This document shows positions 16,614 to 35,210 of a stretch of DNA of 43,035 nucleotides, in pieces. The notes under the pieces were generated by a model. The model was not told where the DNA came from and did no database searches. It saw nothing but the letters and a program-made list of their open reading frames with translations. Origin of the DNA: Bacteroidota bacterium (GTDB lineage Bacteria > Bacteroidota > Rhodothermia > Rhodothermales > JAHQVL01); contig JBCCIM010000028.1 of the NCBI GenBank assembly GCA_039111535.1, forward strand, positions 1 to 43,035, given 5' to 3'. The position numbers were made by a program, and so were the translations under genes. The first letter of the stretch is position 1, and each line of letters opens with the position of its first letter.

Positions 16614-17654
16614 ATGAAGCTTACCTTTAGATGGTACGGCCCGGACGACCCGGTTTCGCTGGCCTACATCAAACAGATCCCCCACATGTCGGGTATTGTT
16701 TCTGCACTACACGATTTGCAGCCCGGAGAAATATGGCCGCTGGATCGATTGCTTGAACACAAAGCAACCATAACGGACGCCGGCTTGTCCTTTGCCGTTG
16801 TGGAAAGTATTCCGGTTCACGAAGACATTAAACTCGGCCGGCCAACGCGCGATAAGTTGATCGAAAATTACTGCCAGAGCATCGCCAACATGGGCGCGGC
16901 GGGTATCCCTGTGCTGTGTTATAATTTCATGGCTGTTTTCGACTGGTTTCGCACAGATCTGGCAATGGTGAATCCGGATGCGTCAACCGCACTCAGTTTT
17001 AGTCAGCACGCCCTCGACCAGATAGACCTGTCGCGTGGCACAGGCTTTCTGCCAGGCTGGGGTACAGCCTTTACTGCAGAAGCCCTGCAAAGCTTACTTG
17101 CAGCCTATGCAACAGTTGACGAATCACAGTTATGGGACAATCTGGGGTACTTCCTCGAACGCGTCGTACCTGTTGCTGCCGCAGCCGGCGTGCGCATGGC
17201 AATCCATCCGGATGATCCCCCCTGGTCGGTATTTGGCCTGCCCCGCATTATAACATCGGGCGAGGCACTCAAGCGCCTGACACAATTGGTTGACGATCCG
17301 GCAAACGGCGTAACCTTGTGCTCTGGCTCCCTCGGCGCGGATCCAAACAATGATGTCCCACAAATCATCCGTACACTTGGGAAACGTGGACGCATCCATT
17401 TTTCGCATTGCCGCAATGTCAAAGTCACGGGCCCACGAACGTTTCATGAGAGCCCGCACCCGGCCGCATTGGGCAGCGTAGACATGCGCGAAGTTATGCA
17501 GGCATACAAGGACATTCAGTTTGACGGCCCGTTGCGCCCTGATCATGGCCGAATGATTTGGGGAGAAACAGGCAAAGCAGGGTACGGCCTCTATGACAGA
17601 GCCCTTGGCGCAATGTATTTGCAGGGGCTCTGGGAAGGACTCCAAAACCCTTGA
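16614..17654 (+). CDS. uxuA: Mannonate dehydratase
   Basis: Dehydrates D-mannonate to 2-keto-3-deoxygluconate in the cytoplasmic hexuronate (glucuronate) pathway. The protein is 346 residues, close to the normal UxuA length, with the family's N-terminal MKLTFRWYGPDDPVSLAYIKQ-like opening. Metal and substrate landmarks: AIHPDDPPWSVFGLPRI (about 199-215), TLCSGSLGADPNND (about 235-248), IHFSHCRNVK (about 262-271) and RPDHGRMIWGE near 318-328. Start is ATG 16614. It is not flanked by uxaC, uxuB or kdgK here, so the pathway is completed elsewhere, but the gluconate permease at 19748 and the epimerase at 9306 are consistent with sugar-acid use. Confidence 0.95.
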   Translation: MKLTFRWYGPDDPVSLAYIKQIPHMSGIVSALHDLQPGEIWPLDRLLEHKATITDAGLSFAVVESIPVHEDIKLGRPTRDKLIENYCQSIANMGAAGIPVLCYNFMAVFDWFRTDLAMVNPDASTALSFSQHALDQIDLSRGTGFLPGWGTAFTAEALQSLLAAYATVDESQLWDNLGYFLERVVPVAAAAGVRMAIHPDDPPWSVFGLPRIITSGEALKRLTQLVDDPANGVTLCSGSLGADPNNDVPQIIRTLGKRGRIHFSHCRNVKVTGPRTFHESPHPAALGSVDMREVMQAYKDIQFDGPLRPDHGRMIWGETGKAGYGLYDRALGAMYLQGLWEGLQNP

Positions 17655-17733
17655 ACCGTAAAAAGCTTGAAACGCAAACACTTCCCTTGAATAGAAAGAC
17701 CCGATTCAGTCAACGATAATCCACTTCTGATTA

Positions 17734-18861
17734 ATGTATACAGAGATCCATTCTCTAGAAGAGCTCCGGGCCCACATAGCCGAACACGCGTGCCTGGATT
17801 GTGTTGTGTGCCAGGACCTTGATTTGCGCGAAGACTCCGAACTGCTGCTCAAGTATGCAGCAACAGGCGGCGCATTTCTGGGTTGTGAATTTGAAGACCG
17901 GGCGCTTACGCATATCATAAAAACAGGCGGACTCGTTTTTCCCAAATTACCGAACCTGCCCTACCGCCCCTATCGGGCTTCGCTTTATTCGATAAGCGAA
18001 TTAATGACAGGCTACAAACGCGGTGATCAGGAGAGCTACAACAAGCTTGCTGTAGACTCAACCATCTACAACCACTTCGAGCAATTCAAGAAGACAGATG
18101 AACCCCTGCCCTTGCTTGAAGCGCTCTCCCAACGGCTGCATGACCTGGCCATTGATGACGCCCTCTACGATTTGCTCAAACACCATCCGAAGGTGGTGGC
18201 AATTATGGGCGGGCACCGCATGAAACGCAACGAGGCTTCTTACCGGGATGTAGCCTTGATTGCCCGAGGCCTGACGCGCGCCGGCTATTTTGTTGCGACA
18301 GGCGGCGGACCAGGTGCCATGGAAGCAGGTAATCTGGGAGCATGGATGGCAAAACGTAGACTGGATGAACTCGACGATGCCATTGCAACCCTCTCGAAAG
18401 AGACAGATTTCCATACAATCGCGTACCTCGACCTCGGGTTTGAGGTACTGGAGAAATACAGCAACGGCGAAGAAAGCCTGGCCATTCCAACCTGGTTTTA
18501 CGGCCACGAACCTACCAACCAGTTCTCAACGCACATTGCCAAATACTTTGCTAACAGCATTCGCGAAGATATTCTTTTAGCGGTTGCAACCTCCGGGGTC
18601 ATTTTCTCACCCGGAAGTGCCGGCACCATACAGGAAGTGTTTATGGATGCTGCCCAAAACCATTACGGCAGCTTCAAAGTGGTCAGTCCCATGGTCTTCT
18701 TTGGTGAGCAATTCTGGACCAAGGAAAACCCGGTTTATCCCTTGCTGCAACAGTTGGCGGAATCGAGACAATACGGCGAAATGTTGAGCATCAGCGACTC
18801 ACCGGATGAGATTGTTGCTTTTATCAAAACCCATGCACCCGTGCCGTACAAACAAGGATAG
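17734..18861 (+). CDS. LOG-family nucleotide-binding protein
   Basis: A 375-residue Rossmann-fold protein related to the LOG (lonely guy) nucleoside monophosphate phosphoribohydrolases, which release the base from nucleotides. Landmarks: the first loop VVAIMGGHRMKRNEASYRDV (about 152-171), GYFVATGGGPGAMEAGNLGA (about 183-202), and SPGSAGTIQEVFMDAAQNHY (about 292-311), which corresponds to the PGGxGTxxE motif but has Ser in place of the second Gly. The first 150 residues are an extension not present in short LOG proteins. No signal peptide. The exact substrate is unknown, and PpnN or a distinct nucleotide-binding subfamily are alternatives. Confidence 0.8.
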   Translation: MYTEIHSLEELRAHIAEHACLDCVVCQDLDLREDSELLLKYAATGGAFLGCEFEDRALTHIIKTGGLVFPKLPNLPYRPYRASLYSISELMTGYKRGDQESYNKLAVDSTIYNHFEQFKKTDEPLPLLEALSQRLHDLAIDDALYDLLKHHPKVVAIMGGHRMKRNEASYRDVALIARGLTRAGYFVATGGGPGAMEAGNLGAWMAKRRLDELDDAIATLSKETDFHTIAYLDLGFEVLEKYSNGEESLAIPTWFYGHEPTNQFSTHIAKYFANSIREDILLAVATSGVIFSPGSAGTIQEVFMDAAQNHYGSFKVVSPMVFFGEQFWTKENPVYPLLQQLAESRQYGEMLSISDSPDEIVAFIKTHAPVPYKQG

Positions 18862-19117
18862 GCAGTCCTGTCAATGCTAGGACGATGTGGCAAATCTGAT
18901 GGACGAAAGGACCTGCATGAACCTGCCGGCTCCTGTTATCAAACAACTTTTTTTCGAGGCTACAGAACCATTTAGAAGCTTCTGATGTAGGAGTCTTTAT
19001 CTGGCTAAACCGTGTGTAGCGCACATTTTCAATTCGCATGACGCCATTCATCCTTCGCGCTTCAACCGGTAAAGATACATTAGCAAATCTGTTACCTTCT
19101 TGCCTTGAGGGTTTAAT
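18862..19117 (+). promoter_or_regulatory. Intergenic region upstream of CBS gene with Shine-Dalgarno
   Basis: About 256 bases with no supported gene. A good Shine-Dalgarno, GAGGG, lies about six bases ahead of ATG 19118, which is unusual for this window, where most starts lack one. No strong terminator for the LOG gene is visible. Confidence 0.5.
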
Positions 19118-19705
19118 ATGCCAATTGAATGGGTCGGTGAAAGTCTTTCATCCGCGTATACTTCGGGGGATACACGTCCTGTAGACCCCTCAGATCGTAG
19201 TCAAGCGAATCGAGATCGACAGAAAAGAGGGCAGGATCAGCAGGGGTCGTTCAGAAATCCGTACAGACAATCGATTGCTCGTGCACCACAGCGAATCGAA
19301 AAAGCTGTGTATGCAAAAGAAATTATGCAAACGCGGGTTCAAACCGTCAAGCAAGGGGATCCGCTTGCTGTAATCCTGTCACTGATAGCCACCCATGGCA
19401 TCAACCACATCCCTGTACTTGATCCGGGAAACAAGCTGGCAGGCCTTGTCTCATACCGAAGCATCCTGGAAGCCATATCAGAGAAACGTACGGTAGACAT
19501 GGTAACGGTCCCGGAAGTGATGACGACCAAATTTCTCACGGCTACCGGCAACACCACACTCCATGAGCTCTCCCGCGTGATGGTCGTGGAAAACATAGAA
19601 TGCGTACCTATTGTTGACAATGCCCAGAAGCTCATCGGTCTCATAACAACAGCCGAAATGATGCAATGCATTGTCAACCACTCCAAACTCAATGTTTGGA
19701 TTTAG
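19118..19705 (+). CDS. CBS-domain pair protein
   Basis: A 195-residue cytoplasmic protein. Residues 1-60 are polar, basic and probably disordered. Residues about 66-190 hold two CBS motifs forming one Bateman module: KEIMQTRVQTVKQGDPLAVI with HGINHIPVLDPGNKLAGLVS, then EVMTTKFLTATGNTTLHELS with IECVPIVDNAQKLIGLITTA. Such modules bind adenine nucleotides and sense energy charge or ionic strength. No catalytic or transport domain is attached, so it is a stand-alone sensor or part of a partner complex not identified here. The next gene is convergent. Confidence 0.93.
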   Translation: MPIEWVGESLSSAYTSGDTRPVDPSDRSQANRDRQKRGQDQQGSFRNPYRQSIARAPQRIEKAVYAKEIMQTRVQTVKQGDPLAVILSLIATHGINHIPVLDPGNKLAGLVSYRSILEAISEKRTVDMVTVPEVMTTKFLTATGNTTLHELSRVMVVENIECVPIVDNAQKLIGLITTAEMMQCIVNHSKLNVWI

Positions 19706-19747
19706 TCCGGGTAGATGCAGTTCGTGTTGATGCGAATTGGCGGCGCG

Positions 19748-21094
19748 CTACAGAAACGCGCTTACAATCAGCATGACAATGAGCCCGATGACGCCAACGA
19801 TGGTTGTAACAACGGTCCAGGAGCGAATGGTCTCTTTCTCCGTCATCCCGAAATAGCGGTTAACCAGCCAGAACCCCGAGTCATTAACATGGGATACCAC
19901 ACTGGCGCCAGAGGCAATAGCAATCGTAACGGCTGCAATCATTGGTGCTGAGAAGCCGCCCATTTCGATGACCGGCGCAATCAGGCCGGCAGCTGTAACC
20001 ATCGAAACTGTTGCGGAGCCCTGCGACAGGCGAACAACGAGGGCAATCAAGAATGCCAGCAGCACCAACGGCAAACTCGATGCAGCCATCGCATTTGCAA
20101 GCGCCTCTCCTACGCCAGTTGCAATCAATACTTTACCAAACACACCACCTGCACCTGTAACCAGAATGATCAACCCAACCGGCTCCATCGAGCGCGTTGC
20201 AATGCGCTGGATCTCATCTCGCGAATACCCGCGCAGCGTGCCCAGGCCATAAAATGCAATCAGCGTAGCAATGATCAACGCAATGAATGGATGCCCAATA
20301 AAGCCCAGCCACTCCCGCACCATCGAGGTTTCAGCCAATTGCACCGTTGCAATGGTGTTGGCAAGAATCAAGGCAAGTGGCGTTATGATAATGGTCATTA
20401 CCAGGGCAAACGACGGAAGCTCTTTATCGTTTGTTGAATCTGGCAGACTCTGCTCCATGTATTCGGGTACATCCAGTACAATTTTCTTGGCGATATACCT
20501 GCCGTAATAGACACCCCCAATGGCTGTCGCCGGCGCACCAGCCAGCACACCAAAAAGGATGACCCAGCCCAGATCCGCATTCAAAATGCTCGCGACCGCA
20601 ACAGGCCCAGGCGTTGGGGGAATAAATGCATGGGCCACCGCCATGCCAGCAATCAGGGGTACACCATAATAGAGGAGCGATGTCTTTGTTCTTCGCGCCA
20701 AGCTATAAACAAGCGGGATAAACAGAATTAGCGCAACGTCAAAAAACACAGGAGTCGATACAATGAGTCCGGTTATACCCAGCCCCCACTGCGCTTTATT
20801 CTCTCCAAACCGCTTCAGCATCGTTTGCGCAACACGCTCTGCACCACCCGACACCTGCAACAATTCGCCAAACATGGCACCAATACCAACTACAATGGCA
20901 ATGTAGCCGAGGGTGCTTCCCATCCCGTTCTGGATTGTTGTCGTGATTTCAGAGATGGGTATCCCCCCAACAATCGCAACAAAAATACTGGACAGCAAAA
21001 GTGCCACAAAGGCCTGCAATCGAACAACAATTACAAGGACGAGCAACAGCGCTACGCCGGCAACCGCCAGCGAAATGAGGGCTAAAGTAGACAT
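19748..21094 (-). CDS. gntP: GntP-family gluconate permease
   Basis: A 448-residue inner-membrane symporter with about 12 hydrophobic segments, of the GntP family that imports gluconate and related sugar acids with protons. Family signatures: VVGIGAMFGELLQVSGGAER near the third segment, VSTPVFFDVALILFIPL, PLIAGMAVAHAFIPPTPGPV and, near the end, GSATVSMVTAAGLIAP and SHVNDSGFWLVNRYFGM. Start is ATG 21094. The substrate could be gluconate, fructuronate, ketodeoxygluconate or glycerate; the UxuA gene at 16614 favours a hexuronate breakdown product. It is divergent from pepT across a 245-bp region that must hold both promoters. Confidence 0.93.
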   Translation of the reverse strand: MSTLALISLAVAGVALLLVLVIVVRLQAFVALLLSSIFVAIVGGIPISEITTTIQNGMGSTLGYIAIVVGIGAMFGELLQVSGGAERVAQTMLKRFGENKAQWGLGITGLIVSTPVFFDVALILFIPLVYSLARRTKTSLLYYGVPLIAGMAVAHAFIPPTPGPVAVASILNADLGWVILFGVLAGAPATAIGGVYYGRYIAKKIVLDVPEYMEQSLPDSTNDKELPSFALVMTIIITPLALILANTIATVQLAETSMVREWLGFIGHPFIALIIATLIAFYGLGTLRGYSRDEIQRIATRSMEPVGLIILVTGAGGVFGKVLIATGVGEALANAMAASSLPLVLLAFLIALVVRLSQGSATVSMVTAAGLIAPVIEMGGFSAPMIAAVTIAIASGASVVSHVNDSGFWLVNRYFGMTEKETIRSWTVVTTIVGVIGLIVMLIVSAFL

Positions 21095-21339: not shown

Positions 21340-22593
21340 ATGAGCCAACTCCCGTCCGTTGTGGAGCGCTTTATGCGCTATGTGCAGATAGATACACAGT
21401 CAAATCCAGCGTCAGATACTGTTCCGTCTACAGAGAAGCAGAAAGATTTGGGCAGATTGCTCGTAGCTGAACTCGAGGCACTCGGCGTTCCTGATGCAAT
21501 CATGAACGCACAGGGATACGTATTTGGCACCTTACCAGCAGTTGGCGAAGACAACCCGCACGGACCAACACTTGGCCTGTTGGCGCATATGGATACATCA
21601 CCCGACGAATCTGGCAAAGACGTAAAGCCGGTCATTCATCAGAATTATGATGGCGGCGTTATTGCGCTACCGGGTGATCCAACGGTTGTATTGAATCCGG
21701 AAACACAGCCGGCGTTGCTGTCACACATCGGGCACGACATCATTACAAGCGATGGTACCACCCTGCTTGGCAGCGATGACAAAGCCGGCGTTGCCATTCT
21801 GATGCAACTTGCAGAAGACCTGATTGCAGATACAGAAACAACACGCCCAAGAATCCGCCTGTGTTTTACAATCGACGAAGAAATTGGCCGGGGCGTTGAC
21901 CACCTCAGTCTCGACGAACTCGACGTAGACGTAGCATATACCATCGATGGCAGCGGCGTAGGCAACTTCTTTGCAGAGACCTTCAACGCCGTTATGGCCA
22001 CGTTAGCTGTCAAAGGCGTGATGGTTCATCCGGGTTATGCAAAAGGCGTAATGGTCAATGCCCTTCGCATTATGTGTGAAATTATCGCCGCATTGCCGGC
22101 AGATCAGGCGCCTGAGTCGACTGGAGAAAGAGAAGGCTACATTCACCCGCATCATATTGGTGCTGGAGATGCCAGTGCCGTTGAGGCCACCTTTATCCTG
22201 CGCGACTTTACAACTGAGGGAATGGCCCGCAAGCGCGACTTCCTGCAATCTCTCGTTGCACTCTATCGGGTTAAATACCCCAGGGCTGCGATTGAGTTGA
22301 CGCTCGTGGACCAGTACAAAAATATGCGTTCATATATCGAAAATACGGACCCACGTGTAGTGTCGCTGGCACACGTAGCGGCATCACAAATGGGTATCAC
22401 GTTGGAAGAACATGTTGTGCGTGGCGGCACCGACGGCGCACGTTTGTCTGAACTCGGCATTCCAACACCCAACGTATTCAACGGGGGGTATGACTACCAC
22501 AGCAAGTTTGAATGGAACACGGTACAAAATCTGGAAACCTCACTGGTCTACCTGAAACACCTTGTGACGGTCTGGGGAACTGAAGCCCGCTAA
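21340..22593 (+). CDS. pepT: Peptidase T (tripeptide aminopeptidase)
   Basis: A 417-residue zinc aminopeptidase of the M20 family that removes N-terminal residues from tripeptides in the cytoplasm. Active-site landmarks: LLAHMDTSPD with zinc ligand His83 and Asp85, LLGSDDKAG with the bridging Asp near 146-147, FTIDEEIGRG with catalytic Glu180 and ligand Glu181, YTIDGSG with ligand Asp203, and GGYDYHSKFEW near 382-392 with the last zinc His. The length matches the family. Start is ATG 21340. Confidence 0.97.
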   Translation: MSQLPSVVERFMRYVQIDTQSNPASDTVPSTEKQKDLGRLLVAELEALGVPDAIMNAQGYVFGTLPAVGEDNPHGPTLGLLAHMDTSPDESGKDVKPVIHQNYDGGVIALPGDPTVVLNPETQPALLSHIGHDIITSDGTTLLGSDDKAGVAILMQLAEDLIADTETTRPRIRLCFTIDEEIGRGVDHLSLDELDVDVAYTIDGSGVGNFFAETFNAVMATLAVKGVMVHPGYAKGVMVNALRIMCEIIAALPADQAPESTGEREGYIHPHHIGAGDASAVEATFILRDFTTEGMARKRDFLQSLVALYRVKYPRAAIELTLVDQYKNMRSYIENTDPRVVSLAHVAASQMGITLEEHVVRGGTDGARLSELGIPTPNVFNGGYDYHSKFEWNTVQNLETSLVYLKHLVTVWGTEAR

Positions 22594-22640
22594 CACCGGC
22601 TGCCAACGCAAAGCATCATGCACTTCTATCGATCATCAAA

Positions 22641-22694
22641 GAAAAAAAACGCATTGAGCGGGGGATCTCTTTTCCGGTCGGGGTGTTTTTTTTC
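22641..22694 (+). terminator. Probable terminator after pepT
   Basis: A 10-bp perfect inverted repeat (GAAAAAAAAC at 22641-22650 and GTTTTTTTTC at 22685-22694) brackets a GC-rich centre. The T8 run at the end supports termination on the plus strand. The inner pairing is not clear, so the strength is uncertain. Confidence 0.55.
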
Positions 22695-22730
22695 TGCACT
22701 AATTTTATATATCGTGGCATTATTTTCCTT

Positions 22731-22781
22731 AATTTACTACTTCAAGTAAATTCGATGGACAGCCACTCAAATTTAATTTGA
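22731..22781. promoter_or_regulatory. AT-rich double inverted repeat ahead of small membrane genes
   Basis: Two short inverted repeats lie in an AT-rich stretch: AATTTAC (22731-22737) with GTAAATT (22746-22752), and TCAAAT (22767-22772) with ATTTGA (22776-22781). This is the expected promoter area for the small gene at 22858 and could include an operator. Chance occurrence in AT-rich DNA cannot be excluded. Confidence 0.4.
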
Positions 22782-22857: not shown

Positions 22858-23040
22858 ATGCTCATTTACGGCCACCCCTCAGGACGTCAGGCGCGAGAAC
22901 AGCAGCGCCAACGAAGACGTAGACGCCGAATCAATGAATTCAAGGCATTCATGGCCGCAGTTGGACTCGTATTGACCACGGCCCTCATGTATGGCGGTGT
23001 GTTTGCCCTTCTCTTCCTAGTTGCCAAGTGGTTAGCCTGA
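22858..23040 (+). CDS. 60-residue single-pass membrane protein
   Basis: Encodes 60 residues from ATG 22858; an upstream frame to 22798 adds 20 Cys-containing residues without support. The N-terminal half is cytoplasmic and very basic, with a run of six Arg at about residues 19-24; residues about 32-58 form one membrane helix (MAAVGLVLTTALMYGGVFAL and on). The positive-inside rule places the N-terminus in the cytoplasm. I do not recognise the family. A second small membrane protein and the large pseudoenzyme follow on the same strand with gaps of about 40 bases, so a shared transcript is likely. Confidence 0.65.
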   Translation: MLIYGHPSGRQAREQQRQRRRRRRINEFKAFMAAVGLVLTTALMYGGVFALLFLVAKWLA

Positions 23041-23082: not shown

Positions 23083-23343
23083 ATGCAGGATAAACGCAAA
23101 CCCTTGAGCAAAACCGCCAGTCGCCGCGTGCTATTTGGCCTGATTGTGGTAACTATCTTCCTTGCTTATCTGGCTGCGCTTGGGATCCAGAGCGCCTCGC
23201 AAAACCAGGCATTGCAGGAAGAAATTATTGAAATGCGCCGGCAATTCGACCCCAACTTTAAAGAGCCTGACAGCTCAAAAAGCGCCGGACCTGCTGCCAA
23301 TGCTGTTGCAGCACCTGCACCTGATTCTACTGTTTCTAACTAA
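23083..23343 (+). CDS. 86-residue single-pass membrane protein
   Basis: Begins at ATG 23083 with a basic N-terminus (QDKRKPLSKTASRR), one membrane helix at about residues 15-36, then a short helical, coiled-coil-like stretch (QNQALQEEIIEMRRQF) and a Ser/Ala/Pro-rich tail. The topology would place the tail in the periplasm. It resembles small divisome or linker proteins in layout only; no family is recognised. It sits 42 bases after the 60-residue gene and 37 bases before the large fusion gene. Confidence 0.65.
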   Translation: MQDKRKPLSKTASRRVLFGLIVVTIFLAYLAALGIQSASQNQALQEEIIEMRRQFDPNFKEPDSSKSAGPAANAVAAPAPDSTVSN

Positions 23344-23380: not shown

Positions 23381-25765
23381 ATGCGATCTGCTGTTCTCAT
23401 TTGCTCTCTTGCCATTCTTGTCCTATTGGTCAACTCAGGTGACTGGTTGGCTGATCAACTCGTGCTGCGAAGCAACGATACCTTCCTGAAGAACAGCCTC
23501 AACATCCTGGTAAACCGCGAACTGGCGGATAAAAAAATACCCGGACTCGCCATTACGGTCATCGACGACCAGAATGTGTTGTTCGAAGATGGGTTTGGTC
23601 TTGCAGATCCCACAGGCAATGTGCCGGCATCTCCATACACGGTATTCCAGGCCGGCGCCGTTGCACAACTGTTTACCACGATAGCCGTCTTGCAGCGCGT
23701 CGAACACAACAAGCTCGACCTCGACGCCCCAATTGCTACCTACCTCCCCTCTTTTGCACCACGCAACCCATACGGACTCGATCTGACGCTCCGCCAAATC
23801 TTGTCGCATCAATCTGGCCTCGTCGCTGAACCACCAGTTGGGCACTACTTTGATACGTCGCGGCCCACACTAACACAAGTTGTTGAGAGTATTAACCAGA
23901 CAACCGTTGTATTTCCGCCAGAAACCTTTACCAAGTATTCCAATGCCGGCTTTGCCGTTGCCGGCAATGTGCTGGAGGCATCACTCGAAAAACCGTTTGA
24001 GCAACACATGCGGGCCATTCTCGATCGTATGCACCTCAAACGCACAAGCTTCACAGACCGGCTCGATCTGAAGAGTAAACTTGCTGTAGGCCACATTTCC
24101 TCGCTGGATGACCGTATTGTACCCCTGGACCCGCTTGAGATTGCCAATGGGCCGGCCAACAACCTGTACACAACGGTAAACGACCTGGGCGCTTTTATGA
24201 AGGTCCTTTTTGCAGACGGACTGAGCCCCAACGGCAGCATACTGGATGGTGATGCCTTTGAACAAATGTGGACCATCCAGCTGTCTACAGCGCGTAAACA
24301 GATTCCGTTTGGTCTCGGCTTTGCCGTTTCCATTTTTGAAGACCAGCGGCGGGCTACCCTGACCAGCAATACCCACGGCTTTACAACGCGCATAGACTTG
24401 CTACCCGATCAAGACCTGGGCGTTGCGATTATTGCCAACCTCGCATACAGCGAAGCCACGCTGGAAAAACTGGCTGGTTATGCGCTCAAACTGGCGCTGG
24501 CGCAAAAGAAAGAGGAGGCAACCCCTGCGTTCCCCAACTCGCGGCAACCGGACTCGTCCATGGTCAGCCAGGCCATCGGTTATTACATCAATGCAGATCC
24601 GCTCTACATTTCCAAGTCTGACCACAACCTGTATCTGTATCAGGACTTCAACAGGTATCGTCTCAGACAGCAAGGAGACTCCTTAATTATAGACGATAAA
24701 CATGCTTACGGCCCGATATTACTCTCTGACGGGCTAACGCTACAATACAATAACACCCTGTATTCCAAGCGGAATGCAGCGGTCCCTCGCGCTGGCGCGC
24801 CGAGGTATGCTAACCTTACAGGCGACTATGGTTTACCCGATCGCCCAATTACCATCGTCGAACAAAACAACAACTTGTATGCGCTCGACGGCTGGAACAC
24901 TGCCTACACCCTCACACCAGACGCTGAAGACCGATTTCTTTTTCCTGTAGACGGTTTGTACGGCGGTGAGTCTATTACCTTCACCAGAAATGAAACGGGC
25001 GAAATAGCATCAGCTTACTTTGCCAATATGCCACTGCCCCGGTTAACCGATGGCGCGTATGCAGATCTGGTACGGACAGTACCGCTGGAAAAACCAATCA
25101 GTGGTACAGCACAGCCGCTGGTTGCACCTCCGGAGTCAATGCTAACAGCGTACGGCAATAAAGAGAGCGAAATGGTAGATCTCACACATGTGGATCCCCT
25201 TTTCAACCTCGACATCCGCTATGCGACGAGGGAGAACCTGCTCGGCACGCAGATTTACAGCGAAGCCCGTGCGTTACTGCAACGGCCCGTTGCGGAGGCT
25301 GTGTTTAGCATCCAGCGCCAGATTCGCCGGCTTGGCTACGAACTGGTTGTCTACGACACCTACCAACCCTGGTATATCTCAAATGCCATCTGGGAAAGCG
25401 TGCCCGATAGCATGAAGTATTTCTTCAATGATCCGCAACAGAGTATCTGCCAAAACAACGGCACAGCGCTCAGTGTGGGTATTTTTGAATTAAACGCCGG
25501 CGCAGCTATGCCCATGCCGTCAGAATACGACGAAATGACGGCACTCAGCTACGCAGACTCTCCCCTTCCGGAGGAGCGACTCCGGTGGAACCGGGACTTC
25601 CTTCGCCGGCTGATGGAATCTGAAGGGTTTACCGTTGCAGCTGACAAGTGGTGGCACTTTACGCACAATTCCTGCCCTCAATACCCCGTGATGAACACAC
25701 CGTTCGCAGAGGTAGAGTATATCAATACGAACAACCTCCAGCGCATCTTCACGGTAGATCGTTAA
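23381..25765 (+). CDS. Beta-lactamase-fold / VanX-like-fold fusion, apparent double pseudoenzyme
   Basis: A 794-residue exported fusion. Residues 1-20 are a signal or anchor. Residues about 35-375 have the serine beta-lactamase/esterase fold: LTLRQILSHQSGLV and a YSN motif (Tyr186-Asn188) are intact, and a THG (331-333) stands at the third motif, but the catalytic SxxK is AVAQ (Ala93, Gln96). Residues about 598-775 match VanX-type D-Ala-D-Ala dipeptidases (LDIRYATRENLLG, LGYELVVYDTYQP, ADKWWHF), but the four key positions differ: the Arg of DGYRP is Gln662, zinc His is Gln691, zinc Asp is Ser698, and the catalytic Glu of EWWH is Lys756; only His759 remains. Both halves are therefore predicted inactive; ligand binding to peptidoglycan-type peptides is a possible role. 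The middle (about 385-590) is beta-rich and unassigned. Confidence 0.85.
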   Translation: MRSAVLICSLAILVLLVNSGDWLADQLVLRSNDTFLKNSLNILVNRELADKKIPGLAITVIDDQNVLFEDGFGLADPTGNVPASPYTVFQAGAVAQLFTTIAVLQRVEHNKLDLDAPIATYLPSFAPRNPYGLDLTLRQILSHQSGLVAEPPVGHYFDTSRPTLTQVVESINQTTVVFPPETFTKYSNAGFAVAGNVLEASLEKPFEQHMRAILDRMHLKRTSFTDRLDLKSKLAVGHISSLDDRIVPLDPLEIANGPANNLYTTVNDLGAFMKVLFADGLSPNGSILDGDAFEQMWTIQLSTARKQIPFGLGFAVSIFEDQRRATLTSNTHGFTTRIDLLPDQDLGVAIIANLAYSEATLEKLAGYALKLALAQKKEEATPAFPNSRQPDSSMVSQAIGYYINADPLYISKSDHNLYLYQDFNRYRLRQQGDSLIIDDKHAYGPILLSDGLTLQYNNTLYSKRNAAVPRAGAPRYANLTGDYGLPDRPITIVEQNNNLYALDGWNTAYTLTPDAEDRFLFPVDGLYGGESITFTRNETGEIASAYFANMPLPRLTDGAYADLVRTVPLEKPISGTAQPLVAPPESMLTAYGNKESEMVDLTHVDPLFNLDIRYATRENLLGTQIYSEARALLQRPVAEAVFSIQRQIRRLGYELVVYDTYQPWYISNAIWESVPDSMKYFFNDPQQSICQNNGTALSVGIFELNAGAAMPMPSEYDEMTALSYADSPLPEERLRWNRDFLRRLMESEGFTVAADKWWHFTHNSCPQYPVMNTPFAEVEYINTNNLQRIFTVDR

Positions 25766-25988
25766 GCAAGCCGCCCTTGCTAACCCTCAATACATAAGCC
25801 GGTTAAGGAGGGAAGAACCCTCTTCCAAAGCCTGGCGCCTCACCTACTCAAGACAGCATGTAAAATTCCATGCGGCCCGAATATCGCGGTATGTCATTTT
25901 TTTTGCCTGCTGCTAAATTGCCATTTGCAGAGCAATTGATTTTCTTTCACCACCGCTCCCTTCCCATGAAGCCCTTAAACCTTACGTG
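25766..25988 (+). promoter_or_regulatory. Intergenic region upstream of the T9SS cargo gene
   Basis: About 220 bases without a gene. A small hairpin at 25806-25824 (stem GAGGG/CCCTC plus flanking pairs, loop AAGAA) lies 40 bases after the previous stop and could stabilise or terminate that transcript, though no T run follows. A T8 run is present near 25900. The promoter of the large gene is expected here. Confidence 0.4.
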
Positions 25989-28900
25989 ATGCGATCTTAC
26001 GTGCTGGTTTTGCTCATGTTACTGCTTGTGCAAGTAGCCGCTGGTCAACAACCTTCAGAAATACTTCAGCTCAACGAATTTATGGCGTCAAATGCCAGTA
26101 CGCTGGCAGATGAAGATGGTGCGTTCAGCGACTGGATTGAAATACTGAACTTAAGCAGTGCACCGGTTGACTTATCAGGATGGTCGCTCACTGATGATAT
26201 TGACGAGCCGGCAAAGTGGGTATTCTCTGGCGGCACACTTTCACCAGGTGATTTTGCCCTTGTTTTTGCCTCAGGAAAGGATCGCGGCAATGCAAATATT
26301 GCATGGGAGACATTCATTGATAAAGGAGATCAATGGCAATACTTTGTCGGTGAAACGGCCCCTCCGGACAACTGGCTGGACCCCGACTTTGACGATACGT
26401 CGTGGGAAGCCGGAGCCAGTGGTTTCGGATATGGTGATGACGATGACGCCACGCTTGTAGATGTAGTAATTTCTGTGTTTGTCCGGAAAACGTTCACGAT
26501 CCAGCAGGTAGAACAGGTTACGCGGGTCTTGTTGGACATAGACTATGACGATGGATTTGTAGCTTACCTTAACGGTATCGAAGTTGCCCGCGCAAACGTA
26601 GGCGTCGAAGGCGTGCGGCCGGCTTTTGACGAGGGCGCGGGAAGTGCTGGTGAGCCCTTTGGTGTTAGAGGTTTGCCGCCGGCGCGCTTTGAACTAGAGG
26701 ACCTGGAAAACGTCCTGCAAGAAGGCGAAAACGTACTCGCCATCGAAGTGCATAATGCGTCTTTAAATTCATCAGATTTGACCCTCATCCCCTTTCTAAC
26801 CCTCGGATTCGATGCGCCGCAAAATCCCGATGCACCAATAGCCGATGACATTGCCCCGTTGCCGGGTGAAGAATACCATACCAATTTCAAACTTGGCGCT
26901 GAGGGTGAATACCTGGCACTGGTCAATCCTGAAGGCATTGTAGCTTCAGCCTTCGATCCAGCGTTTCCCCCGCAATCAGAAGACCTGTCGTATGGTTTTC
27001 AAAATGGTGTAGCGGGCTACCTGGCCTCCCCCACACCAGGAGAGCCAAACAGTGCCGTCATTTCAGGGTTTGCAGAAGCCCCTGTTTTCAGCGTTGAACA
27101 CGGTTTTTTTGACACACCTTTTAGCGTAACGCTGCGTTCATCAACGCCTGATGCGATGATCAGGTATACTCTGGATGGCAGTCCGCCGACCTCGACAACG
27201 GGCACGCGTTACGAAGCCCCGATCACCATAGAGAAAACCGCTGTATTACGGACTGTAGCATACAAAGCCGGTTACCTCGATTCTCCAGTAGCCACACAAA
27301 CGTATCTCTTCCTCGACAATGTCGCTGGCCAGATTGGAAGACCTGAAGGATGGCCAACCACCTGGGGTGGCAATGTTGTAGACTATGGTATGAATCTGCA
27401 AATTGCAGGACTCCCCGACACCGGTAACCGTGCACAAACCATCAAAGCCCTGCAGTCAATTCCCAGTGTATCGTTGGCCATCGACCTCGACGAACTCTTC
27501 GATGCAGACACGGGCATTTATGCCAACGCATTTCAACGTGGACGGGATTGGGAAAGGCCGGCTTCTGTTGAATTCATGTTTCCCGATGGTACAGAAGGCG
27601 TCCAGATCAACGCCGGCGTCCGCATTCGCGGTGGGTTCAGCAGGAGCGAAAACAATCCCAAACATGCATTCAGGTTGTTCTTTAGGGATGAAATGCTCAA
27701 ATTCCCCGCCTTTGAAGATGAAGGTGTCGCTGAGTTTGAAAACCTGGACTTACGAACCAGCCAAAACTACTCGTGGTCATTTAATGGCGATACGCGAAAT
27801 ACCATGAATCGCGACGTGTTCTCGCGGGATACCCAACGCGACATGGGAGATCCTTACACAAGGAGCCGTTATTACCATTTATATATCAATGGCCTGTATT
27901 GGGGGCTATTTCAAAGCCAGGAACGGTCGGAAGCGTCGTTTGCAGCTTCTTATTTTGATGGTGACAAAGACGATTTCGACGTACTTAAATCAACCGGCCC
28001 CACCGATGGGTTTTATGATCTTGAAGTCACAGATGGTAACGCTACAGCCTGGGTCGATTTATGGACTGCTGTAAATAACATGGCGGATGCTACTGACGAA
28101 ACTGAGCGGCAAGCAATTTATCAGCAAATTCAGGGGAGAAACCCGGATGGATCGAGAAACACAGATTTCTCAATTTTGCTTGATGTAGACAACCTGATCA
28201 ACTATACCCTGATCAATTTTTACACTGGCAACTTTGATGCTCCCATTTCCTGGTTTCTGGGGAATGAGCAAATCAACAACTTTTACGCAATCATAAACCG
28301 TGTCGGCGAAGCAGGATTCAAGTTCTTCACCCACGACAACGAACATTCCTTGCTGCCTGATGCTCCCCAGGCCAGAGATCGAACGGGCCCGTATCCTGCC
28401 GGAAACCAGCTTAAAGAGAGCAATCCGATGTGGATTCATCAGCAATTGATGTCATCTCCTGCGTATCGCATCCGTTTTGCAGACCTTGCGCACAAGCACC
28501 TGCGCAACGGTGGCATCCTAACCGAGGAAGCCGGCCGCGATAGATTTCTTGCGCGCGCTGCAGAAATAGAAGAAGCAATATGGGCTGAATCTGCCCGATG
28601 GGGAGACTCCAAACGTCAACCATCCTTAACGAAAGATGACTGGCAAAACGCCATAGACAACATTTCGAATAACTTTTTCCCGGGCCGCTCTGAAGAAATT
28701 ATTCAGCTACTGAGAATATCTCGGCGCTACTCGGATTGGCGTTTCCCATCACTGGGCTTCGTAGTCGATCCTCTTTTCCCCGCGATCGACCCGCCGGCCT
28801 TTAATCAACACGGCGGCAATGTGTCAGCTAACTTCCTACTGTCGCTCGCCAGTGAGGCTGATTCAGTGTATTTTACAATGAATGGCCCTGACCCTCGCCT

Positions 28901-30779
28901 CAGCGATGGCGCAATTTCGCCAGATGCCGTGCTGTACAGCGGGGGCGCCGTTGCACTTGCTGGAGCAGTAGACGTGCAGGCACGCGCCATTGTAGACGGG
29001 CAGTGGTCAGCCTTAAATCAAGCTACTTTCTTTGTAGATGCGGTTGCCCCCACCCCGGCATCGCTTGTCATTTCAGAAATCCATTACAACCCTTCAGCAC
29101 CCGACCAGCCTGAAATTAACGCGGGATTTGAAGACAACGACGATTTTGAATTCATCGAACTGTTCAACACAGGCAACGAAGCCTTACACCTCAGCGGGTT
29201 GCGCTTCGCTGATGGCATATCTTTCACGTTTGACGCAGCTGTATTGCCACCTGCATCTTATGCGTTGCTTGTAAAAGATGCAGCAGCCTTTGCGTTTAGG
29301 TATGGCGCTGATATCTTGGTTGCTGGCGAATATGATGGCAAGCTCAGCAACAGTGGAGAAAACCTGGTACTTCAAGGGTTCGACGGAACGGTTCTTCACG
29401 AGCTAGCCTACGGTACGGGTGGCAACTGGCCGAGCCGTGCTGATGGTAGCGGGAGCTCACTCGAACTCCTTGCTGATGCACAAGACCTTGCTTTATCAGA
29501 GCATTGGCAAGCCAGCCCTGGCGTTGACGGATCGCCCGGTGCACCTACCGCAACAGACGCCCTACCCATACGCATCAACGAGGTGTTAACACATACCGAC
29601 TTGCCACTGGTAGATGCAATCGAACTCTTCAATCAATCAAATGATGACGTTGATATTAGTGGCTGGTACCTGAGCGACTCCGATCAATATAGGAAGTTTG
29701 CCATTCCCACAGGCACTGTCTTGCCAGCAGGCGGGTTTATCGTCTTCGATGAATCCGATTTTAATGCGGATGGCAGCCCAACAGCCTTTGCGCTCAACAG
29801 TGCATCCGGAGATGAGGTCTCCCTCGTCTCAACAGGCAATAATGACAAGCTATTGAGGTTTGAGGACCATGTCTCATTTGGTGCAACAGCCAATGGAGAA
29901 ACGCTGGGCAGATGGCCTGATGGCACGGGAGCTTTATATCCTATGTTACAACCCTCTCTGGGCAGCACAAACGCCGGCCCCAAAATAGGCGACCTGGTCT
30001 TCCGGGAAATCATGTACCACCCACCAAACAACGACCGGTATTTAGAATATGTGGAGGTTATAAACCGAAGCAGTTCATCACTGAATGCCGAAAACTGGCA
30101 AATCGAAGGGGGTGTTTCCTACACCTTCCCAGACGGACTTACTTTGGGAGCCGGGGAAATTGCGCGTATCGTGCCTTTTGATCCATCCGTAGAGTCTGAT
30201 AAAATTGCTGCCATGCAGCAAGCGTTCAGCGATCCGGCGGTACAGGTACTGGGGCCCTGGGACGGCCGGCTTAACAATGCAGGTGAGACGCTGCTACTCA
30301 CCCGTCCTGACATGCCCCCCATCGAACAGCCCGACCTGATTCCTCGAATTGAGGTTGATCGGGTTGGATATAGCAATGCAGCGCCATGGCCAACCGAAGC
30401 CAATGGCGCCGGCGCAGCACTGGTCAAAATTGAATTGGATGACTTTTCTGATGACCCCAGCAATTGGACTGCTGAATCGCGTGTCGTTGAAACGGAGCCG
30501 CCACTGGACCCCGTAGACGTATTTGAATTGGTAGCCCCCTTTCCGAACCCAGCATTTGAATCTGCAACCTTCTCGCTGGTATTGGAAGAGGTCGACTATG
30601 TGCGTATTGCGCTTTACGATGTGCTGGGCCGGCAAGTGCAGGTGATAAATGAATCTTCACTTCGGCCCAATGAGCGCCATCAGTTCACGCTGAATACCTC
30701 AGGGTTGGCAAGCGGAGTCTACTTCATCCACATTATAGCAGATCGCTTCGGTGTAACAGAAAGCATTGTAGTATTTTAA
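25989..30779 (+). CDS. T9SS-exported CotH/lamin-tail-domain multidomain protein
   Basis: A very large exported protein, 1596 residues from ATG 25989 (GTG 25986 also possible). Signal peptide about 1-20. Domain order: lamin-tail domain (about 27-100), a jelly-roll region (105-277), a chitobiase-like CHB_HEX_C domain (about 363-445, IRYTLDGSPPTS), a CotH-kinase-like region (about 490-920, including GVRIRGGFSRSENNPKHAFR, LYINGLYWGLFQSQERSEAS and FFTHDNEHSLLPDA), a second CHB_HEX-like segment, then three more lamin-tail domains (about 1025-1150, 1190-1310, 1330-1470). The last 85 residues are a Por/T9SS type A sorting signal (PFPNPAFESATFSL, YDVLGRQVQ, GLASGVYFIHI). Likely a cell-surface protein; CotH-type phosphorylation activity is possible but unproven. 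It converges on rpoC. Confidence 0.9.
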   Translation: MRSYVLVLLMLLLVQVAAGQQPSEILQLNEFMASNASTLADEDGAFSDWIEILNLSSAPVDLSGWSLTDDIDEPAKWVFSGGTLSPGDFALVFASGKDRGNANIAWETFIDKGDQWQYFVGETAPPDNWLDPDFDDTSWEAGASGFGYGDDDDATLVDVVISVFVRKTFTIQQVEQVTRVLLDIDYDDGFVAYLNGIEVARANVGVEGVRPAFDEGAGSAGEPFGVRGLPPARFELEDLENVLQEGENVLAIEVHNASLNSSDLTLIPFLTLGFDAPQNPDAPIADDIAPLPGEEYHTNFKLGAEGEYLALVNPEGIVASAFDPAFPPQSEDLSYGFQNGVAGYLASPTPGEPNSAVISGFAEAPVFSVEHGFFDTPFSVTLRSSTPDAMIRYTLDGSPPTSTTGTRYEAPITIEKTAVLRTVAYKAGYLDSPVATQTYLFLDNVAGQIGRPEGWPTTWGGNVVDYGMNLQIAGLPDTGNRAQTIKALQSIPSVSLAIDLDELFDADTGIYANAFQRGRDWERPASVEFMFPDGTEGVQINAGVRIRGGFSRSENNPKHAFRLFFRDEMLKFPAFEDEGVAEFENLDLRTSQNYSWSFNGDTRNTMNRDVFSRDTQRDMGDPYTRSRYYHLYINGLYWGLFQSQERSEASFAASYFDGDKDDFDVLKSTGPTDGFYDLEVTDGNATAWVDLWTAVNNMADATDETERQAIYQQIQGRNPDGSRNTDFSILLDVDNLINYTLINFYTGNFDAPISWFLGNEQINNFYAIINRVGEAGFKFFTHDNEHSLLPDAPQARDRTGPYPAGNQLKESNPMWIHQQLMSSPAYRIRFADLAHKHLRNGGILTEEAGRDRFLARAAEIEEAIWAESARWGDSKRQPSLTKDDWQNAIDNISNNFFPGRSEEIIQLLRISRRYSDWRFPSLGFVVDPLFPAIDPPAFNQHGGNVSANFLLSLASEADSVYFTMNGPDPRLSDGAISPDAVLYSGGAVALAGAVDVQARAIVDGQWSALNQATFFVDAVAPTPASLVISEIHYNPSAPDQPEINAGFEDNDDFEFIELFNTGNEALHLSGLRFADGISFTFDAAVLPPASYALLVKDAAAFAFRYGADILVAGEYDGKLSNSGENLVLQGFDGTVLHELAYGTGGNWPSRADGSGSSLELLADAQDLALSEHWQASPGVDGSPGAPTATDALPIRINEVLTHTDLPLVDAIELFNQSNDDVDISGWYLSDSDQYRKFAIPTGTVLPAGGFIVFDESDFNADGSPTAFALNSASGDEVSLVSTGNNDKLLRFEDHVSFGATANGETLGRWPDGTGALYPMLQPSLGSTNAGPKIGDLVFREIMYHPPNNDRYLEYVEVINRSSSSLNAENWQIEGGVSYTFPDGLTLGAGEIARIVPFDPSVESDKIAAMQQAFSDPAVQVLGPWDGRLNNAGETLLLTRPDMPPIEQPDLIPRIEVDRVGYSNAAPWPTEANGAGAALVKIELDDFSDDPSNWTAESRVVETEPPLDPVDVFELVAPFPNPAFESATFSLVLEEVDYVRIALYDVLGRQVQVINESSLRPNERHQFTLNTSGLASGVYFIHIIADRFGVTESIVVF

Positions 30780-30938: not shown

Positions 30939-33900
30939 TTATGGGGTGACAGATTCAACTTTGCTAGGCAGGTCGCTTCCAAGTGCTGCCTGCAGTTCTG
31001 CAAGCTCTTTCTTGGACCCAACCACGATGTCGCGGAATCGGCGCTGGCCGGTACCTGCAGGAATGAGGTGACCTACGATCACGTTTTCCTTCAAGCCATA
31101 CAGCGGATCCACTTTCGCGCGGATGGCAGCTTCGGTGAGTACCTTTGTTGTTTCCTGGAAGGAAGCAGCAGATACAAACGAATCTGTTGACAGCGATGCC
31201 TGCGTGATACCGAGCAGGATGGGCTCAGCAACTGCCGGCTGCGTTTCACGCACCGTAACCTGTTTGAGGTCTTTACGCTTCATGTCAGAGTTAATCTCAC
31301 GAAGCTTACGGCGGTCTACAATTTCACCAACCTTGAGTACAGAGTCACCTGCATTCGTCACTACAAAGCGATCATACAAGTAATCATTGAGCTCTTCGAG
31401 GATGAAACGGTCTACCTTGCTGCGCTCCAGCAGGTTTGTATCGCCAGGATCGGTGATGCTAACTTTCTGCATCATCTGGCGCACAATAACTTCAATGTGC
31501 TTGTCATTGATCGTTACACCCTGGAGGCGGTAAACTTCCTGCACCTCGTTTACGAGATACTCCTGTACTGATTTAGGTCCGAGAATACCGAGGATATCCT
31601 GCGGTGAAATCTGCCCATCAGAAAGCGGCTCGCCAGCACGGACAAAGTCGTTCTCATGAACAATCAGGTACTTCGAAAGCGACACAAGGTATGTTTTCGA
31701 GATTTCGCCATCGCGGCTAGTCACAATCACTTCCTGAGAACCACGTTTACGACCACCGAAGGAAACAACCCCATCGATCTCACTAACAACAGCAGGATCA
31801 GAAGGACGACGCGCTTCGAACAGTTCGGTTACACGTGGCAGACCACCCGTAATATCGCGCGTCTTCGCAGACTGACGCGGCATTTTTGCGAGGATTTCAC
31901 CAGCCTGTACCTTGTCGCCGGCATCGATCTGCAAGCGCGCACGGATTGGCAGTGGATACTCTCGAACTTCACCGTCTTTGGTTGTCACGAGGATAGCCGG
32001 CGTAAGGGTACGCTCCCTACTCTCTGTAATAACCTTCTCTTTATAGCCGGTCTGTTCGTCAGACTCTTCGCGGTACGTGGTACCTTCGACGATATCCTGG
32101 AAAGAAACCGTACCGGCAACTTCAGAGAGACGCACACTATTGTAAGGGTCCCAGCTGGCGAGTACTTCACCTTTCTCGAGCACCTGTCCGTCAGAGACGA
32201 GCAGCTCAGCACCATAAGGAATGATGTAGGAGATAAGCTGCCGGCCTTTTTCTTCCGGATCCATAATCCGAACGCCACCCTGACGGGCAAGGACAACTTC
32301 TCTCGTTTCTTCCCCTGTATCCAGCGTTACCGTGCGCAGGTTTTCAAATTCAACAACACCACCAAATTTGGTCTGCAAGGTGCTCTCAGCAGAAATACGC
32401 GAAGCAGTACCACCAATATGGAAGGTACGAAGCGTAAGCTGTGTACCAGGCTCACCAATCGACTGTGCTGCAACTACCCCAACAGCCTCTCCGGTCTCAA
32501 CCAGGCGGTTCATCGCAAGGTTACGGCCATAACACAGGGCACATACGCCACGACGCGATTCACAAGTAAGCACGGAGCGAATCTCAACTTCCTCAATGGA
32601 AGTCTCCGAAATTTTACGCGCTTTAGCTTCGTCAATCAGCTCATTGGCTGCAACGATGGTTTCGCCAGTAAGCGGATCTTCAACATCGTGCACCGATACG
32701 CGACCGAGAATACGGTCTGCCAGCGGTTCTACGATGTCCTCATTGTCTTTCAACGCTGTTGTGCGAATACCACGCAACGTGCCACAGTCCGTAATCGTAA
32801 CCGTAACATCCTGTGCAACGTCAACAAGACGGCGCGTCAGGTAGCCGGCATCAGCCGTTTTCAGGGCAGTATCAGCCAAGCCTTTACGGGCACCGTGCGT
32901 TGAGATAAAGTACTCAAGTACCGACAGGCCTTCTTTAAAGTTGGAGATAATCGGATTCTCGATAATCTCTCCAGCTGAACCAACCAGGCTTTTTTGCGGC
33001 TTGGCCATCAGACCACGCATTCCACCAAGCTGACGAATCTGCTCTTTAGAACCACGAGCACCAGAGTCAGCCATCATGTAAATGGCGTTGAAACCCTGCT
33101 TGTCTTCTTTCAGTGCATCGAAGAGCACTTCAGAGATCATGCCGTTGGTACGGGTCCAGATATCGATAACTTTATTGTAGCGCTCGTTCTCCGTAATGTG
33201 GCCCATTTCGTAGAACTCAAGCGCCTGCTCTACTTCGCCAGAAGCGTCGGAGATCAGGTCTTCTTTTTCCTGCGGTACAACGATATCGGCCAGCGAGAAG
33301 GTCAGACCAGCTGTTGTAGCCTGCTCAAACCCACGGTTCTTCATGCTATCGAGAAACTTCGTGGTTTCAGCAAAACCTGTAGCAGCCAGGATTCTGGAAA
33401 TAATGCTGCGGAGGTTCTTTTTGGTAAGGACCTCATTGATATAGCCGGCGCCTTCCGGTACAACTTCGTTGAACAGGACGCGGCCTACTGTGGTCTCCAG
33501 CGCTTCACCTTCATGCATCAGCGTGATTTTGGCGTGGAGGTCTACAATTTTCTGATCGTATGCCTGGCGAACTTCTTGAGAGGAGCTAAAGCGTTTGCCT
33601 TCTCCCCGCATGCCGTTCCGGGCTTTGGTCATGTAATAGAGGCCCAAAACCATGTCCTGCGTTGGTACCGTCACCGGTCCACCATGTGCAGGGCTCAAGA
33701 TGTTATGGCTGGCAAGCATGAGGATCATGGCTTCCAGACAAGCATCATGGCTCAGTGGCACGTGTACAGCCATCTGGTCACCGTCAAAGTCGGCGTTGAA
33801 AGCGGTACATACCAGCGGATGCAGCCGGATTGCCTTGCCTTCAATCAGTACCGGCTGGAAAGCCTGGATACCGAGACGGTGCAGCGTAGGTGCACGGTTA

Positions 33901-35210
33901 AGCATAACCGGCCGGCCATCGATGACTTTTTCAAGGATGTCCCATACATCGGATGTCCTGCGGTCAACAACCTTCTTGGCGCTTTTAACCGTCTTAACGA
34001 TGCCACGCTCAATCAGCTTGCGGATTACAAATGGCTTGAAGAGCTCCACAGCCATTTCTTTTGGCAAACCACATTGGTGCAGCCCCAGTTCAGGACCTAC
34101 AACAATTACAGAACGGCCAGAATAATCAACACGCTTACCAAGCAAGTTCTGACGGAAACGACCCTGCTTCCCTTTCAGCATATCTGAAAGCGACTTGAGG
34201 GCGCGGTTTGAGTCGGAACGCACTGCGTTGGCTTTACGGCTGTTATCAAACAGCGAGTCAACAGCCTCCTGGAGCATCCGCTTCTCGTTACGCAGAATTA
34301 CTTCAGGAGCCTTGATATCAATCAGGCGCTTGAGGCGGTTGTTGCGGATAATTACGCGACGATACAAGTCGTTGAGGTCACTTGTCGCAAACCGACCGCC
34401 TTCGAGCGGTACAAGCGGGCGCAATTCCGGTGGGATCACAGGAATAACGCGCATGACCATCCACTCCGGGCGGTTCTCCATGCGCTTGTTGGCATCACGG
34501 AAGGACTCAACAACGCTCAATCGTTTCAGCGCTTCAGCTTTACGCTGCTGGCTAGACTCTGTGCGAACCTGGAAACGCAGTTCCTGCGCCAGTTCATCGA
34601 GTTCAGCACGACTCAACATCATTTCGACCGCTTCACCACCAATTTTGGCGATGAATTTTTCCGGGTCTTCGTCGTCCAGGCGATTGTTATCTTCGCGGAT
34701 CTGATACAGAACGTTGAAATACTCGTCTTCAGAGAGCAGCTGCTTCGGCTCGACACCTAGTTTTTCTGCAGCACCAGGCTGAATAACGATATAGTTTTCA
34801 TAATAGATTACCTTCTCGAGGTCTTTCGACTTGAGTCCGAGGAGGTGACCAATTTTGTTTGGTAGTGTTTTGAAATACCAAATGTGAACAACGGGCACAC
34901 TAAGCGTGATGTGTCCCATACGCTCACGACGCACTGCTTTCTGGGTTACTTCAACCCCACAGCGGTCACAAATAATGCCTTTGTAGCGAATACGCTTGTA
35001 TTTGCCGCAATGACATTCCCAATCTTTTACTGGACCAAAGATCTTTTCACAGAAGAGGCCATCTTTTTCAGGCTTAAACGAGCGATAGTTGATCGTCTCA
35101 GGTTTAAGCACCTCGCCATAAGACCGCTCAAGAATGGTCTCGGGAGAAGAAAGACTGACGGTGATCTGTGTAAAGTTCTTTCTTATTTTCTGCGTTTTTC
35201 CGTACGGCAT
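30939..35210 (-). CDS. rpoC: DNA-directed RNA polymerase subunit beta'
   Basis: The 1423-residue beta-prime subunit, which carries the catalytic magnesium. Landmarks: N-terminal zinc ribbon [19 protein letters not shown] (near 66-84), the absolutely conserved [12 protein letters not shown] with the three catalytic Asp (about 469-480), bridge-helix and trigger-loop region around [20 protein letters not shown], and the second zinc site [13 protein letters not shown]. The length fits Bacteroidota-type beta-prime. Start is ATG 35210, 100 bases after rpoB; this spacer carries unusual repeats. Ends just ahead of a strong terminator. Confidence 0.99.

Follow-up and report, generated by a model that had tools for sequence, protein, structure and literature searches.

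A probable double pseudoenzyme of fused S12 and VanX-type folds retained beside rpoC in three genera of a Rhodothermales family

The fusion gene and its neighbourhood

The window, by which we mean the whole stretch of 43,035 nucleotides that was analysed (contig JBCCIM010000028.1, from a Bacteroidota bacterium of the order Rhodothermales), contains a fusion gene that lies downstream of a pepT-like gene and three short open reading frames. The convergent gene on its other side was named from family knowledge, and we take it to be rpoC.

21340..22593, + strand: M20 peptidase (pepT-like), the conserved upstream neighbour (Pfam; synteny)
22618..22749, + strand: ORF1, a 43-aa small membrane protein starting MHFY, conserved in all three genomes of the family
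22858..23040, + strand: ORF2, a 60-aa small membrane protein starting MLIYGHP, present in two of them (the window's own genome, G000, and G001)
23083..23343, + strand: ORF3, an 86-aa protein with a transmembrane segment plus a short coil, present in all three and found after pepT in several of the order's families
23381..25765, + strand: S12-M15D fusion gene with both catalytic sites lost (ATG start, 794 aa, stop-free frame)
30939..35210, - strand: presumed rpoC, the convergent gene that defines the conserved slot (87-89% identical to its G001 and G002 counterparts)

The same slot was found in G001 and G002, two further genomes of the window's family: pepT is followed by small membrane ORFs, then by the fusion gene, and then by convergent rpoC-rpoB. 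The fusion gene and rpoC are separated in the window by a gene for a 1597-aa LTD/CotH/chitobiase-C/Por-secretion-tail protein (25986-30779), which is absent from the corresponding slot in G001 and G002. Sugar-acid genes, including those for a UxuA mannonate dehydratase and a GntP permease, lie upstream of pepT (16614-21094), in an order conserved in G002.

The starts of ORF1 and ORF2 are strongly conserved. The ORF2 proteins of G000 and G001 share 68% identity, and no ORF2 was found in G002; matches to it outside the family were weak and were not accepted as homologues. ORF3, which has no Pfam match, and pepT form a gene pair that several of the order's families have conserved. Since ORF3-like proteins follow pepT in other families, ORF3 belongs with pepT, and it was rejected as a partner specific to the fusion gene. 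No small membrane ORF was found directly upstream of the fusion at six intact copies of the order.

Domain layout and predicted structure

An earlier note on this DNA had described an intact scaffold of 794 residues free of frameshifts. This was confirmed: the frame opens with ATG, runs without a stop and carries both domains. The only Pfam matches in the protein were PF00144 and PF01427, and no M23/LytM domain was detected with Pfam.

23384..23434, + strand: N-terminal hydrophobic helix, residues 2-18 (model helix H2-18; no lipobox Cys)
23516..24487, + strand: S12 beta-lactamase-fold domain, residues 46-369 (Pfam PF00144 Beta-lactamase, 5e-46)
24488..25162, + strand: beta-rich middle region, residues 370-594 (many strands in the model; the match to 2qmi reaches residue 463)
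25163..25678, + strand: M15D (VanX-type) domain, residues 595-766 (Pfam PF01427 Peptidase_M15, 3.4e-23)

The AlphaFold model of the whole protein had a pLDDT of 88.3 and a pTM of 0.85. Its S12 half was matched to 2qmi (VIA Z 41.7, rmsd 5.0, 388 aligned) and to human LACTB, 7v21 (VIA Z 39.9, rmsd 2.5, 337 aligned). Because the structure search with the whole model returned S12 chains only, the M15 half was also modelled and searched alone (pLDDT 89.2), and its best PDB match was VanX 1r44 (E 3.8e-15, TM 0.71/0.73). Both the S12 fold and the VanX fold are therefore predicted with confidence.

In the model, residues 2-18 probably form a membrane anchor or an uncleaved signal. Most intact fusions of the order have a lipoprotein-like leader that ends in Cys, whereas the window copy and its two counterparts carry a conserved hydrophobic helix there, which in the window copy has no lipobox Cys. 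Residues 1-45 are 38-40% identical between these three copies; intact pairs that have diverged to a similar extent overall give 18% ± 7. The window protein is thus probably membrane-anchored, as far as export and anchoring can be read from the N-terminal helix.

Loss of both catalytic sites

Both folds are present in the window copy, and both active sites have been altered. The S12 domain lacks the Ser and Lys of SxxK as well as the third motif. In the VanX superfamily, zinc is coordinated by a His-Asp-His set (PMC4087270); in the window copy these ligands, the catalytic Glu and the Arg are not intact.

23657..23668, + strand: AVAQ (residues 93-96) where SxxK is expected (alignment to solved S12 proteins and intact fusions)
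23936..23944, + strand: Y186-S-N188, the second S12 motif, kept in the window copy (Phe at 186 in G002)
24359..24367, + strand: L327-T-S329 replacing the third S12 motif, HSG (alignment to relatives)
25364..25366, + strand: Q662 replacing the VanX Arg (alignment to 1r44 and intact fusions)
25451..25453, + strand: Q691 replacing the first zinc His (same alignments)
25472..25474, + strand: S698 replacing the zinc Asp (same alignments)
25646..25657, + strand: K756-WW-H759, with the catalytic Glu gone and the last zinc His retained (same alignments)

The earlier note had placed AVAQ at the SxxK position and had read Gln662, Gln691, Ser698 and Lys756 in place of Arg, His, Asp and Glu, with His759 kept. 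Both assignments hold: AVAQ falls in register with GSITK of 2qmi and 7spn and with [AG]SVSK of the intact fusions, and the VanX positions agree with the alignment to 1r44. Two further points had been overlooked, namely that the third S12 motif (K/H-x-G) is also gone (LTS in the window, IGS in G002, IED in G001) and that Tyr186 of YSN is kept.

We considered whether the S12 fold or the VanX pocket could catalyse another reaction through new residues. Several residues are fixed in the three copies and absent from intact copies at the same positions (Q96, T100, R106, F183, R305, Q307, D339 and C765), as such a change of chemistry would predict. However, no conserved Ser/Lys pair in register substitutes for the dyad in the three copies; C765, which alone among the Cys residues noted in the VanX half is both new and invariant, lacks an equally conserved partner (C690 is replaced by Ser in G001); and several catalytic positions differ among the copies (S/S/A, K/R/T) instead of having been fixed anew. 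We regard a new catalytic activity as quite improbable.

Intact relatives and the origin of the inactive copies

Full-length S12-M15D fusions were present in several families in a search of 60 relatives, and wider searches also recovered them from Acidobacteriota, Planctomycetota, Ignavibacteriota and Calditrichota. (In the wider contig scan the window protein used alone as query gave no match, and an alignment query found the fusions.) The fusion is widespread, and its architecture was accordingly rejected as a novelty in itself. The intact fusions of Rhodothermales and of these four phyla have the domain order of the window protein at 30-40% identity; unlike the window copy, they keep SxxK, YSN, HxG, the VanX Arg, the zinc ligands and the Glu. 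Of the 55 distinct fusions of full length, which span at least five phyla, 51 have all nine catalytic residues intact. The other four comprise L061, with Lys replaced by Asn, and the copies of the window, G001 and G002, which lack residues of both sites. L061 (7770-10238), an Ignavibacteria fusion from a single MAG, has SVSN for SxxK and an intact VanX site, possibly through a sequence error or an independent loss confined to S12.

The three copies lacking residues of both sites, hereafter the dead copies, come from three genera, one genome each. The window protein is 49% identical to its counterpart in G002 and 46% identical to that in G001 (about 45-49% across the dead copies). They form a single clade with support of 100/100 against the 52 other fusions; its stem is long, at 1.19 changes per site. 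No further dead member was found among 394 sampled genomes in a search of the phylum with a dead-clade profile. The dead copy is the sole M15 domain found in G000 and in G002 (89% complete), and G001 has a second fusion elsewhere, which is intact and clusters in the tree with an intact fusion from family f11.

The slot itself bears on the origin of the dead gene. Intact fusions of another family, f15, likewise face rpoC convergently, several of them lying no more than ~150 bp from it, and the dead gene is most simply their positional orthologue. Activity was therefore most likely lost in place, and horizontal replacement is disfavoured, as the rpoC-adjacent slot is common to intact copies. In a genome of family f5 (G105, L156 1888-2442), an M15 domain with intact motifs lies between pepT-ORF3 and rpoC, and no S12 match was found at that locus.

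The substitutions are shared by homologues, as the core losses recur in G001 and G002. K96, H327, H691, D698 and E756 are absent from all three dead copies (Lys96 having become Gln in each), and S93, Y186, R662 and H759 are each missing from one copy or from two. Some of these losses may hence postdate the stem. The earlier note had proposed simultaneous loss in both domains, which these data do not bear out: both sites were hit on one stem branch, along which the order of events is not readable from sequence. G002 retains Ser93 and Arg662, so that weak residual chemistry may persist in some members of the clade. The Ser93 codon is AGT in G002 and the Ala codon is GCC in the other two copies; from these codons, Ser may have been lost twice, after Lys.

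To set these losses against the general loss of conserved positions, we compared 148 sites that are conserved in intact fusions, 9 of them catalytic. Not one of the 9 catalytic sites is retained throughout the three dead copies, compared with 71 of the 139 others (Fisher p = 0.003, a guide only, given that the catalytic residues were picked from prior knowledge and that sites and sequences are not independent).

Selection and uneven constraint

The fusion has evolved faster than its neighbours within the family (45-48% identity, compared with 65-71% for pepT and 87-89% for rpoC), as would be seen if a dispensable gene were decaying slowly and neutrally and were still open by chance. Third-position differences between dead copies are 0.61-0.71, close to a random expectation of 0.66-0.74, and second-position differences are 0.21-0.28 in S12, 0.27-0.33 in M15 and 0.38-0.47 in the middle region. 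Third positions are thus saturated and second positions are not, which argues that the dead protein is constrained. A formal dN/dS is not possible with dS saturated among the dead copies. Against neutral decay, moreover, three frames of ~795 codons remain open after third-position saturation, and conservation of the S12 half exceeds that in active copies that have diverged as far; we consider such decay extremely improbable. Judged by the substitution pattern in the three genomes, the dead fusion is kept under purifying selection. The earlier suggestion that this is not a recent decaying allele therefore stands, and a decaying single allele was rejected, with the core losses present in three genera, in one slot and in a fully supported clade with open frames and constrained second positions.

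Constraint is unevenly distributed between the two halves. For S12, identity is 0.52-0.59 between dead pairs and 0.474 ± 0.038 between intact pairs of similar overall divergence; for M15, the corresponding values are 0.42-0.48 and 0.617 ± 0.033. By these comparisons, constraint has shifted in the dead clade, with S12 more conserved and M15 less conserved than in intact pairs. Branch lengths of the dead crown relative to the intact total rise from 0.064 in S12 to 0.104 in the middle region and 0.149 in M15, whereas those of a control clade are flat (0.119, 0.126 and 0.116). Scaled to the S12 half, the VanX half of the dead clade has therefore evolved ~2.3 times faster. The claim that the scaffold was retained holds in that both halves are constrained, but they are constrained unequally.

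This imbalance would be expected if only the S12 half had a (non-catalytic) function and the VanX half were a relic kept for folding or solubility. Consistent with that, all three dead copies have lost 16 of the 65 conserved M15 sites and have kept 22; for the 57 conserved sites of S12, the losses number 6 and the retained sites 36. However, second-position differences in M15 are far below its third-position differences (0.61-0.70), the domain carries fixed residues specific to the dead clade (F682, Q691 and C765), and the VanX fold is predicted to be intact. We consider such a half-functional protein unlikely.

A proposed non-catalytic role

With catalytic residues lost, the fold conserved and homologues apparently active, the protein is a probable pseudoenzyme. 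The reading that we hold to be fairly probable is an ancient, vertically inherited and membrane-anchored double pseudoenzyme that acts by non-covalent binding. That both halves were kept for a non-catalytic role, as the earlier note proposed, gains support from three genera sharing one slot, a single clade and open, constrained frames, and the dead fusion probably works by binding and not by cutting.

Relatives of this S12-M15D fusion in the order are catalytically intact and mostly lipoprotein-like. Along the stem that leads to a single bacterial family, the S12 site lost Lys96 and His327, and the VanX site His691, Asp698 and Glu756; the gene remained open, constrained and in position beside rpoC. 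Its product would be held in the membrane by the N-terminal helix, with the domains predicted to lie outside the cytoplasm. The S12 cleft, whose walls TLRQILSHQSGL and ETFTKYSNAGFAVAG include the best conserved segments, is the most likely site of non-covalent binding, with D-amino-acid peptides, peptidoglycan fragments and protein partners as candidate ligands. The best conserved stretches are residues 136-150 and 181-195, the second S12 motif included; they are also conserved in active relatives and may thus reflect folding and not ligand binding. The VanX-fold half could be a less constrained structural or secondary contact module, and the protein would then regulate or scaffold a process of the envelope instead of hydrolysing a substrate.

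A BlaR1-type acyl-enzyme sensor requires a Ser-Lys pair. The window copy has neither residue, so an acyl-Ser sensor mechanism of this kind is not possible. Sensing of D-Ala-D-Ala peptides or of a beta-lactam-like ligand, which the earlier note had given as examples, would have to work in another way and is a conjectural role. A more elaborate and rather doubtful arrangement is a receptor-like envelope complex, in which the dead fusion, its membrane helix and ORF1-ORF3 would sense peptidoglycan-derived D-amino-acid peptides through the two former active sites.

Comparison with known systems

Pseudoenzymes are common; the unusual point here is that two unrelated peptidoglycan-peptidase sites are dead in one protein. 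Our search of open-access papers found none on an S12-M15 double pseudoenzyme, and none on a bacterial M15 pseudopeptidase that lacks its zinc ligands and is fused to a dead S12 domain. Intact orthologues in the matching slot of a sister family provide a clean natural before-and-after pair, which makes the binding-only capacities of the S12 and VanX folds directly testable.

Among the best structural matches, Pyrococcus abyssi 2qmi and human LACTB (7v21) share the S12 fold of the window protein; 2qmi has SxxK at the position aligned to AVAQ, and neither chain includes a VanX domain. The C-terminal domain has the fold of VanX (1r44), an M15D D-Ala-D-Ala dipeptidase, but has substitutions at two of the three zinc ligands, at the catalytic Glu and at the Arg. 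Sonic hedgehog is an M15-fold pseudopeptidase whose partners are reported to bind at the pseudo-active site, and hedgehog is the only M15 entry in a review of inactive metallopeptidases, its zinc ligands being kept (PMC11266112). Unlike the window protein, it comes from animals, keeps H140, D147 and H182 and is without an S12 domain. A comparable working model, that of a dead peptidoglycan-peptidase fold regulating envelope enzymes, is offered by EnvC and NlpD, two amidase activators of the degenerate LytM type (PMC5533458, PMC7668044). Their fold is M23, compared with S12 and M15 here, and the window protein is likened to them by working principle alone. It belongs to neither the hedgehog proteins nor the degenerate LytM activators.
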